Positions 5,217 to 25,051 of a DNA stretch of 37,522 bases are shown here, piece after piece. The DNA lies in the IMG/VR virus record IMGVR_UViG_3300005288_000098, positions 1 to 37,522 of that record. One strand, 5' to 3'. A program made the translations under genes and the position numbers. Below the pieces are notes generated by a model. That model saw nothing but the letters and a program-made list of their open reading frames with translations. It did not search any database and was not told the DNA's origin. Positions within the stretch are counted from its first letter, which is position 1, and every line of letters starts with the position of its first letter. This DNA comes from a virus.

Positions 5217-5264
5217 TTGATTTTCGATAACTTCTAATTATAATTGGTTACCCCGAAATAGGGG
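5217..5264 (+). promoter_or_regulatory. Sigma-70-like promoter and 5' hairpin before the cupin/ejection genes
   Basis: TTGATT (5217-5222), a 16-bp spacer and a perfect TATAAT (5239-5244) sit in an AT-rich island between otherwise tightly packed virion genes. The predicted leader of about 65 bases begins with CCCC-GAAATA-GGGG (5251-5264), a small hairpin, and ends with GGAAGGGAG before the ATG at 5316. This suggests independent expression of the cupin and ejection genes. It has not been tested. Confidence 0.6.
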
Positions 5265-22990: not shown

Positions 22991-23665
22991 TCAAAACTCA
23001 AATAAAAAAGCCGCTTGTTCGGCGGCTCGTTTGTCGATCTTGGTGATGGGTTGCATTCCCCACTGTTCGGCCATCGCGGCGGCAATGCCCGCGTAGGTGG
23101 TGCTTCGCAGCTTCCACCTGTCCGCGCTGGGCGGCAGCTTGTTCTGCCCGCTGTCGGTCTGGTTGCTCCAGCGCTCGACCAGCTTGCCGTTGTGCTGCAC
23201 CCATCGGCCGGGAAACCGGTTTGTCGGGGTCAGCGGCTTCAATCCCTTGAGCCAGAGGCAGGTAGCCTTGCTGGCGTCGTTGCCGAAGTCATACGGCTGG
23301 ATCGTCTGGTCGGGCTTGCGAATCTGAGAACTGATGCAGCCAACCGGGTTCTCCAGTGCGATCATGGGAACGGGCAGGGCAAGCAGCAGCCGGATGAAGT
23401 CCAGCGCGTCGGCCGTCATCTGCGCACGCTCCGGCCGGCGCTTGTTCCAGTGCAGGCCCGCGCTTGTCAGGTAGGTGCATGGCGGGTGGGCAATCATCAA
23501 ATCCCAGCCCTCGCCCATCACATCGCGCACATCGCCCTGATAGTGCGGGCCGGGCGAGTCCGTGGGCAACAGGTCGCAGCTCATGGCGTCATGGCCGAGG
23601 GCTGCAAAGGCGTTGCGCACGGTGCCGCTGTATTCGCAGGCCACCAAAATTCTGAGCTTTTTCAC
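22991..23665 (-). CDS. Dcm-like DNA cytosine methyltransferase family protein
   Basis: 224 residues; its ATG overlaps the upstream stop (ATGA). The N-terminus ILVACEYSGTVRNAFAALGH is the SAM-binding motif I. PPCTYLTSAG at 61-70 contains the PC nucleophile loop (C63), and IALENPVG (103-109) is the ENV-like motif VI with Pro instead of Val. The later target-recognition region is short. No cognate restriction enzyme is present, so self-protection against host restriction is the likely job. The last codons (RAAEQAAFLFE) double as an intrinsic terminator. Confidence 0.82.
   Translation of the reverse strand: MKKLRILVACEYSGTVRNAFAALGHDAMSCDLLPTDSPGPHYQGDVRDVMGEGWDLMIAHPPCTYLTSAGLHWNKRRPERAQMTADALDFIRLLLALPVPMIALENPVGCISSQIRKPDQTIQPYDFGNDASKATCLWLKGLKPLTPTNRFPGRWVQHNGKLVERWSNQTDSGQNKLPPSADRWKLRSTTYAGIAAAMAEQWGMQPITKIDKRAAEQAAFLFEF
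23003..23027 (-). terminator. Leftward intrinsic terminator embedded in the methyltransferase 3' end
   Basis: Minus-strand stem AGCCGC/GCGGCT with loop CGAACAA, followed by TTTTTATT. The hairpin and T-run are codons of the methyltransferase C-terminus, with its stop codon just after. Confidence 0.7.
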
Positions 23666-23856
23666 TTTGCAGCAGCCAGCTTCTCGAGCTTTTCAGCCGC
23701 CGCTGCATGTTCAGCAGCGGTGTAGCCGCGCACCTTCTTGCCGGTCTTTTCAGCCTTCTCGGCCAGCTTGCGGAGGTCGGCGGCGTTGCGGGCGTACTGT
23801 GCGGACAGCTGCTCGGGCGTGCATTTGAAGCGCGCTGCGATTTCTGTTTTTGTCAT
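23662..23856 (-). CDS. Small Lys/Ala-rich coiled-coil protein
   Basis: 64 residues; CGGAG precedes ATG 23856. The N-terminus TKTEIAARFKCTPEQLSAQY looks like a short helix-turn-helix-like pair. The rest is highly charged helix (NAADLRKLAEKAEKTGKKVR ... AAEHAAAAEKLEKLAAAK). It is the first conventional gene of the leftward operon after the leader, and its stop overlaps the methyltransferase start. Function unknown. Confidence 0.65.
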   Translation of the reverse strand: MTKTEIAARFKCTPEQLSAQYARNAADLRKLAEKAEKTGKKVRGYTAAEHAAAAEKLEKLAAAK

Positions 23857-23879: not shown

Positions 23880-23900
23880 AAAAAGCTCTCGTTAGAAAGC
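23880..23900 (-). terminator. Leader terminator in the left operon
   Basis: Minus-strand hairpin GCTTTC-TAAC-GAGAGC (one G-T wobble), followed by TTTTTGCTTTT. It sits between the candidate N-like peptide and the first conventional gene, the position of an early terminator in lambdoid left operons. Confidence 0.6.
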
Positions 23901-24003: not shown

Positions 24004-24126
24004 TCAGCCGGTGGACAGTGGAGCTGGGCGTCTTCCTTGCGGTGCGCCTGGGGTATCCGGTAGTTTGTTAAAAATCCTGTCGGCTACACGTCGATCCGCT
24101 TTGCCCTTGCTCCGTTTCCGGTGCAT
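24004..24126 (-). CDS. 40-residue Arg/Lys-rich peptide, first ORF from P_L, probably leaderless
   Basis: ATG 24126 begins six bases after the TATAAT of the left promoter, so transcription is expected to start at or within a base or two of the start codon. The peptide begins MHRKRSKGKADRRVADRIFN, an arginine-rich segment, and continues with a Pro-rich tail (PDTPGAPQGRRPAPLSTG). No ribosome site exists. Its position as first gene of the left operon, its basic composition and the terminators downstream recall N-type antiterminators, which use an Arg-rich helix to bind boxB RNA. It is shorter than lambda N (about 107), and no sequence identity is claimed. Confidence 0.45.
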   Translation of the reverse strand: MHRKRSKGKADRRVADRIFNKLPDTPGAPQGRRPAPLSTG

Positions 24127-24132
24127 GGCTAG

Positions 24133-24161
24133 ATTATAAGCAGACTTATAACTATGCGCAA
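24133..24161 (-). promoter_or_regulatory. Left early promoter P_L
   Basis: Minus strand: TTGCGC (24161-24156), exactly 17-bp spacer, TATAAT (24138-24133). Six bases then precede ATG 24126. An 18-bp palindrome covers the -10 and spacer, and an operator overlaps the -35. It drives the whole leftward accessory operon. Confidence 0.75.
24134..24151. promoter_or_regulatory. 18-bp perfect palindrome in P_L
   Basis: TTATAAGCAGACTTATAA: two 7-bp inverted arms around CAGA, covering most of the -10 and part of the spacer. It differs from the AACAR-N5-YTGTT operators and may bind another protein, such as the Cro-like protein, or simply reflect AT-rich promoter sequence. Confidence 0.45.
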
Positions 24162-24174
24162 CAAATCGGCTGTT
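24160..24174. promoter_or_regulatory. Operator O_L1
   Basis: AACAA-ATCGG-CTGTT, the same as the O_R2 site in all ten arm positions. It overlaps the -35 of P_L, so a bound repressor would block RNA polymerase. Confidence 0.6.
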
Positions 24175-24191
24175 ATTTTTTGATAAATCTT

Positions 24192-24206
24192 TACAGAAAG
24201 AATGTT
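24192..24206. promoter_or_regulatory. Operator O_L2 (weaker match)
   Basis: TACAG-AAAGA-ATGTT matches the AACAR-N5-YTGTT consensus at eight of ten arm positions. Its centre is 32 bp, about three helical turns, from O_L1. It could support cooperative binding. Confidence 0.35.
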
Positions 24207-24233
24207 TCAAGCCGTTTCCCGTTGGGCTGGGAC

Positions 24234-24261
24234 GGAAAAAAGCCGCCTCTGATGGGCGGCT
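24234..24261 (-). terminator. Terminator after the repressor gene
   Basis: Minus-strand stem AGCCGCC/GGCGGCT with loop CATCAGA, followed by TTTTTCC. It ends the repressor transcript before P_L, isolating repressor expression from the left operon. Confidence 0.78.
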
Positions 24262-24296
24262 ATCGAGTGGGCGGGCAGCCCTTCTTCTTTTGTCTC

Positions 24297-24761
24297 TTAT
24301 TGGAAGAGAAAGGGTTGCCTTTGGCGCGGCTCGGGCAGGCGCATGAGATAGCTGATGTCGGGCAGGATTGAATCCGCCTGATCGGGGTCGTCAATCAGGC
24401 TTTGCAGTAGCGACCCGACCGCCTTGCGCTTCGATGGATTCAGCGGCGCCAGCAGTTCGGCCAGCATGTGTATCACGCTTGGCGGACTGGCATCTTCCGT
24501 GCATGGCCGCTCAGTGATGGCCGGCGCACCTTCCACATTCTTGAACATGTCGCCTTTTCCGCTGCTGAGCCAGTCCGGGTCCACGCCGGTTGCCCTGGCG
24601 ATTTTCACCGTCAGCATCGAAGCGCCAGCCTCGCGCTCGGCCTCGGAGATATTGGCCTGGGTGCAGCCGACAGCCGCCGCCAGCGCTGCTTGTGTCATGT
24701 TCGCAGACTTCCGGGCGCGCAAGACTCGCAAGCCGAAAGCGGTTCTGGGTGTTTTGGTCAT
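24297..24761 (-). CDS. cI: CI-like XRE-family repressor without peptidase domain
   Basis: 154 residues. Residues about 8-62 are a Xre/Cro-type HTH domain (LRVLRARKSANMTQAALAAA, VGCTQANISEAEREAGASML). The C-terminal half (IHMLAELLAPLNPSKRKAVG...) is helical and lacks the LexA/S24 Ala-Gly site and Ser-Lys dyad, so RecA-dependent self-cleavage is not expected. Induction would need another route. It is divergent from the Cro-like gene, with three operator-like sites between. No ribosome site is visible before the ATG, and a weak TAATAC lies about nine bases upstream, so the message may be leaderless or nearly so. Confidence 0.85.
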   Translation of the reverse strand: MTKTPRTAFGLRVLRARKSANMTQAALAAAVGCTQANISEAEREAGASMLTVKIARATGVDPDWLSSGKGDMFKNVEGAPAITERPCTEDASPPSVIHMLAELLAPLNPSKRKAVGSLLQSLIDDPDQADSILPDISYLMRLPEPRQRQPFLFQ

Positions 24762-24766
24762 GGCGT

Positions 24767-24821
24767 CACAGTATTATTTTTAAGAACAAGTTGACTGTTT
24801 TTTTTGAACAAGCCCGCTGAT
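24767..24821. promoter_or_regulatory. Right operator region: O_R3, O_R2, O_R1
   Basis: Three sites fit AACAR-N5-YTGTT or its reverse. O_R3 at 24767-24781 is CACAG-TATTA-TTTTT (8/10, next to the cI start). O_R2 at 24785-24799 is AACAA-GTTGA-CTGTT (10/10). O_R1 at 24807-24821 is AACAA-GCCCG-CTGAT (9/10, overlapping the P_R -10). Spacing between O_R2 and O_R1 is 22 bp, about two helical turns. Confidence 0.6.
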
Positions 24822-24826
24822 ATAAT
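24818..24826 (+). promoter_or_regulatory. Right early promoter P_R (extended -10)
   Basis: TGATATAAT is a perfect TATAAT with the TGN extension. No good -35 lies at 17 bp (a T-run instead); TTGACT at 24791 is too far at 24 bp. The ATG of the Cro-like gene begins six bases after the hexamer. Confidence 0.7.
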
Positions 24827-24832
24827 GCGGCC

Positions 24833-25051
24833 ATGACCCACAAGATCAACTGGCAAACCACTGTTTTGGACCTCAAATCCAGCGGCTGGACTGAAACCAA
24901 ACTCGCCGCGCTCTGCGGCTGCACGCAAGCCAATATCAACCTCATGGCCCAGGGGCTGAGTAAAAACCCCCGGTACAGCATCGGCGCGCCGCTCGTCGAG
25001 TTGCACAAATCCATGCTGGCTGTGCGCAGACGCACAAGCCAGGCCGCCTAG
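24833..25051 (+). CDS. cro: Cro-like HTH protein, predicted leaderless
   Basis: 72 residues. A short HTH lies at about 20-41 (TETKLAALCGCTQANINLMA), sharing CGCTQANI with VGCTQANI in the repressor, so the two may recognise related DNA. The gene is divergent from cI, first in the right operon, and its ATG is six bases after TATAAT with no ribosome site, hence probably translated from a leaderless message. By analogy it represses cI and later dampens early promoters. Confidence 0.78.
   Translation: MTHKINWQTTVLDLKSSGWTETKLAALCGCTQANINLMAQGLSKNPRYSIGAPLVELHKSMLAVRRRTSQAA

Follow-up and report, generated by a model that had tools for sequence, protein, structure and literature searches.

The cI gene of phage lambda is expressed from P_RM as a leaderless message, whereas lambda cro is leadered. 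In bacterial genes generally, a TANNNT signal typically lies about 12 bp before a leaderless start (PMC3160421), and in Burkholderia cenocepacia about 114 transcripts are leaderless or nearly so, with regulators over-represented among them (PMC4603805). In Yersinia phage PY54 both cI and cro are leaderless as judged by RACE, the cro mRNA beginning at the AUG (PMC4488713), and in the paaR2/ydaS region of the E. coli prophage CP-933P the repressor gene paaR2 is leaderless as judged by 5' RACE (PMC8630535). Among open-access papers we found none that treats the trait as general in a group of phages.

A divergent cI/cro switch and its promoters

The window analyzed here is the whole of a viral DNA 37,522 nucleotides in length (IMG/VR record IMGVR_UViG_3300005288_000098). 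In it, a gene for a 154-residue cI-like repressor (24297..24761, minus strand; HTH_3, E 1.5e-7; repressors of phrog_4/2328, E about 2e-13) is divergent from a gene for a 72-residue cro-like protein (24833..25051, plus strand; phrog_6831 transcriptional regulator, E 1.2e-11; coding signal +14.5 bits). An HTH repressor gene pointing away from the gene for a small Cro-type regulator is the arrangement of a lambda-type cI/cro switch, and 3' of cro are found small genes led by Shine-Dalgarno (SD) sequences, a gene for a replication protein and a gene for DnaB helicase. The ATG of cro, which has an in-frame TGA stop five codons 5' of it, is 72 bp from the ATG of cI, and nearly all of this interval would be taken up by promoter and operator sequences; the region probably serves a temperate phage as its immunity region. 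Both genes begin with GCCATGACC, so that a perfect inverted repeat of 9 bp brackets the switch (24759-24838), and the start of the open reading frame (ORF) that follows P_L likewise reads GCCATG. A terminator-like hairpin (24241..24261, minus strand), consisting of a 7-bp stem and then a run of T residues, lies 3' of cI, between that gene and P_L.

On the plus strand TATAAT (24821-24826) is separated by GCGGCC from the cro ATG at 24833, and on the minus strand a second copy of TATAAT (24138-24133) is separated by CTAGCC from an ATG at 24126. The same motif, TATAAT-N6-ATG, is thus present at both P_R (24821-24835) and P_L (24138-24124), just as an earlier note on this DNA had claimed. The note was also correct that a ribosome site is missing from both of these starts and from that of the repressor: we found no SD before cro, cI or the P_L ORF, and most of the other window genes examined carry one. 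TATAAT is found at only three places in the 37.5 kb (P_R, P_L and a palindrome at 5239-5247), and P_R and P_L are the sole cases in the window of TATAAT-N4-9-[AG]TG. We estimate from base composition that an ATG would be present at one given offset about 1% of the time; two at the same offset would be unlikely, but the motif was picked post hoc.

The P_R -10 box, which is extended by TG at 24818-24819 and ends 6 nt 5' of the cro ATG, belongs to the promoter that scores highest in the DNA before cro (score 15.1, gap 6); its -35 is poor (TTTTTT), a weakness partly offset by the extended TGn -10. The P_L promoter has a score of 12.2, with a poor -35 (TTGCGC, 24161-24156) and a spacer of 17. A generic promoter scan of the window called neither of the two. 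On the cI side, the candidate for P_RM is a weak -10-like hexamer, TACTGT (24768..24773, minus strand), whose position 6 nt before the cI ATG fits that seen in the family and whose -10 matrix score of 3.6 falls under the cut of 4.2.

The sharing of predicted operators supports the view that P_R and P_L are real, co-regulated promoters. One such operator, O_R (AACAAGTTGACTGTT, 24785..24799), lies between cI and cro, and another, O_L (AACAAATCGGCTGTT, 24160..24174), adjoins the P_L -35. Each is an exact match to AACAA-N5-CTGTT, and these are the only two exact matches in the 37.5 kb, one for each promoter. An operator-like sequence with one mismatch (AACAAGCCCGCTGAT, 24807..24821) is located 22 bp from O_R and abuts the P_R -10. 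Separately, a perfect palindrome, TTATAAGcagaCTTATAA (24136-24153), overlaps the P_L -10 (24133..24138, minus strand); it is unlike the shared operator and could be the site for a second protein.

The cro and cI starts of relatives

Searches of phage and viral collections at the DNA and protein levels returned nothing close to the window's cI, cro or 64-codon ORF (see below), and relatives were instead found by way of the replication protein and by cro-family searches of genomes. The cro genes surveyed were members of PHROG 6831, mostly from Burkholderiales prophages; the window cro shares no more than 36% identity with any of the others, and so what the family tells us about it comes by remote homology. 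The first set comprised 22 cro genes, with start codons picked by eye. In 15 of them the -10 of the best promoter ended 5-7 nt short of the ATG; in the remaining seven the distance was 30-40 nt, and no gene fell in between. Dinucleotide shuffles of the upstream DNA reached the short gap in a mean of 0.9 genes (maximum 4 in 300 sets), as did 0 of 269 control ORFs. To remove the bias of choosing by eye, we took the starts of a held-out set of 27 further loci from the profile alignment. Twenty of these had a good promoter at gap 5-7, which was the best promoter in 18 (shuffles, mean 0.8 and maximum 4), and an SD was found at none of the 20 leaderless-type genes versus five of the seven others. 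The gaps of the promoter matches cluster at 5-8, and the -35 boxes stand at 17 bp.

As controls for the scoring, lambda cI and PY54 cro, each with a gap of 6, and lambda cro, with an SD and a gap of 24, were all correctly classed; PY54 cI, which is leaderless by RACE, was overlooked, and hence the method misses cases. When cro genes were grouped into clusters below 50% identity, 19 clusters were of the leaderless type, 10 were leadered and one was mixed, and therefore we are not counting one lineage repeatedly. The trait is not universal: about one third of the cro genes are leadered, and the related cro genes of Acinetobacter phages are leadered with an SD present. We conclude that the predicted leaderless geometry of P_R and cro is a recurrent trait of the family and that the leaderless reading for the window cro is well supported. 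The earlier note had placed the P_R transcription start at or next to the cro start codon and had proposed a comparison of promoter-to-ATG spacing in relatives; the geometry, the missing SD and the recurrence across the family are all consistent with that placement.

The repressor gene usually appears to share the geometry of cro. A -10-like hexamer was present at gap 5-7, often as TACGAT-N6-ATG, in 15 of 21 cI starts, whereas shuffles gave 2.8 (maximum 8) and control ORFs 6 of 269. Moreover, of 34 leaderless switches, 29 have their cI and cro ATGs 71-74 bp apart (first set, 12 of 14; held-out set, 17 of 20), the distance in leadered switches being mostly 98-112 bp. A near-fixed distance is what would be expected if each ATG were the transcription start of one of two back-to-back promoters.

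The P_L transcript

The 40-codon ORF that opens at the P_L ATG (24004..24126, minus strand) is probably no real gene. It has no Pfam or PHROG match, its third-position GC is mixed, and its coding score of -8.9 bits is like that of non-coding frames (in-frame stretches of 40 codons average +17.6). By our estimate, about 30% of ATGs in random sequence of the same composition open a frame of this length. The inferred product is basic, and an identity as an N-like antiterminator was considered; with neither a family match nor a coding signal, this identity was not supported. The P_L transcript has its first credible gene in a 64-codon ORF (23662..23856, minus strand; coding score +30 bits) with GGAG as its SD, and directly before it is a terminator-like hairpin (23885..23900, minus strand) that is also stable in the fold of the leader. 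Within the leader is a weak boxA-like sequence, GGATTTTTAACAAA (24064..24077, minus strand), which has 4 mismatches to TGCTCTTTAACAAT; about 3% of 150-nt stretches taken at random from the window contain a match as good (p about 0.03). An Rfam search of the region gave no credible match.

P_L was located in 16 relatives and in the Acidovorax phage Aval (17 in all) by looking in each phage for further copies of its intergenic operator; a single motif scan of 80 methyltransferase relatives yielded no P_L match. Here the comparison of promoter-to-ATG spacing went against the earlier note: in 15 of the 17, either an SD-led gene begins 28-38 nt past the P_L -10 or no start is close by. In only two, the related Caballeronia prophages L115 and L170, does ATGCAC lie 6-7 nt past the -10, as it does in the window, and the reading frame that follows is not conserved between them, stopping in L170 after six codons. 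A boxA-like sequence is found 20-44 nt after the P_L -10 in L109 (L109:385), L111 (L111:3448), L113 (L113:1460), L159 (an exact TGCTCTTTAACAAT), L168 and L169, and a GC-rich hairpin precedes some of these; the arrangement suggests that the P_L leaders of several relatives are antitermination leaders.

P_L is most likely the start of an untranslated leader, because the ORF is without a coding signal, because P_L is leadered or untranslated in 15 of 17 relatives, because boxA-like sites are present in several of these leaders and a weak one in the window, and because a hairpin stands before the SD-led gene. Thus, of the paired leaderless first genes that had been proposed, the P_R half is well supported, with recurrence of the cro arrangement across the family behind it, and the P_L half is not. 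The robust pair in these predictions is cI and cro rather than P_L and P_R.

A proposed switch and its counterparts

We consider it quite probable that the locus as a whole is a leaderless cI/cro switch with shared operators, in which P_L gives rise to an untranslated leader. Transcription from P_R would begin at, or about 1 nt from, the cro ATG, and transcription from P_RM probably does likewise for cI; both messages would be leaderless, with ribosomes recognizing the AUG at the 5' end. CI, Cro or both may bind to the AACAA-N5-CTGTT sites, which overlap P_R and flank P_L, and with repressor sites at both early promoters the two would be shut together. The P_L transcript would begin with an untranslated leader, possibly containing antitermination signals, and would continue into the SD-led 64-codon gene, the ATG at its +1 being probably coincidental or the start of a minor leader peptide.

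If, on the contrary, P_L and P_R both drove leaderless first genes, that of P_L being the basic 40-residue ORF, this would account for TATAAT-N6-ATG at the two promoters, for the operators they have in common, and for the ATG that L115 and L170 have 6-7 nt past the P_L -10. We regard this as unlikely in light of an ORF that has no coding signal or family, a frame that in L170 ends after six codons, the lack of the feature in 15 of 17 relatives, the ease with which random ATGs open such a frame (the 30% estimated above), and the case of Aval, in which P_L leads to an SD-led gene although cro is of the leaderless type. A little less probable again is that P_R transcription starts upstream and yields a short leader lacking an SD, with the distance from -10 to ATG set only by the packing of operators. 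Indeed, the gap varies from 5 to 7 among relatives, a difference of 1-2 nt that would permit leaders of 0-2 nt, and compact operators could conceivably account for the spacing by themselves. Leaders of 0-2 nt are, however, leaderless in practice, the SD is absent exactly in the gap 5-7 class, and PY54 cro, which also has a gap of 6, starts at its AUG by RACE (PMC4488713). Finally, AT-rich operators beside start codons might mimic -10 boxes by chance, and the P_L -10 does sit in an inverted repeat, but we hold this to be very improbable, as dinucleotide shuffles reached no more than 4 of 22 or 27 genes versus the 15 and 20 observed, and the matches are concentrated at gap 5-8 with a -35 at 17 bp.

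Extending the leaderless cI/cro switch beyond the window, we suggest tentatively, as a possibility that the DNA of relatives raises, that many temperate phages of the Burkholderiales have a compact double-leaderless switch, whose two start codons double as transcription starts and lie a near-fixed 71-74 bp apart, and in which AUG-first (70S-type) initiation would cause the two proteins to respond jointly to ribosome state. If transcript mapping confirms this, then leaderless messages would be the usual means by which both decision proteins are expressed in these phages, and not an oddity of lambda cI. The relatives, among them the cultured Aval, also provide a tractable set for asking if leaderless translation alters the lysis-lysogeny decision under stress. 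The absence of a ribosome site would also explain how annotation can overlook such cro genes. The cro-like gene of Aval (65 residues; L207:2728-2922, minus strand) is absent from the public annotation, perhaps for this reason.

The window resembles lambda in having divergent cI and cro genes with operators between them and, as predicted, a cI start of the kind represented by the leaderless TAGATT-N6-ATG of lambda; it differs in that lambda cro has a leader with a full SD and a gap of 24. CP-933P differs in that leaderless transcription has been reported for the repressor side only. In Aval (OP131589), whose cI is 48.5% identical to the window cI in the HTH region, cI (TAGAGT-N6-ATG) and cro (TATTCT-N7-ATG) are 73 bp apart and without an SD; Aval differs in that an SD-led gene follows its P_L. 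The immB region of PY54 has divergent leaderless cI and cro genes, as we predict for the window. Where PY54 cro has CATAAT-N6-ATG, the window cro has TATAAT-N6-ATG and no SD, its +1 being read from the sequence, and the window cI has TACTGT-N6-ATG, with a weak -10 and no SD. PY54 differs in being a telomere phage of an enterobacterium and in having cI and cro starts that are 105 bp apart, not 71-74. Since RACE showed both genes of PY54 to be leaderless (PMC4488713), the suggestion in the earlier note that such an arrangement had not been described was too strong. Leaderless cI and cro were already known in that phage; what appear to be new are the prevalence of leaderless cI/cro switches and the near-fixed spacing of their starts.
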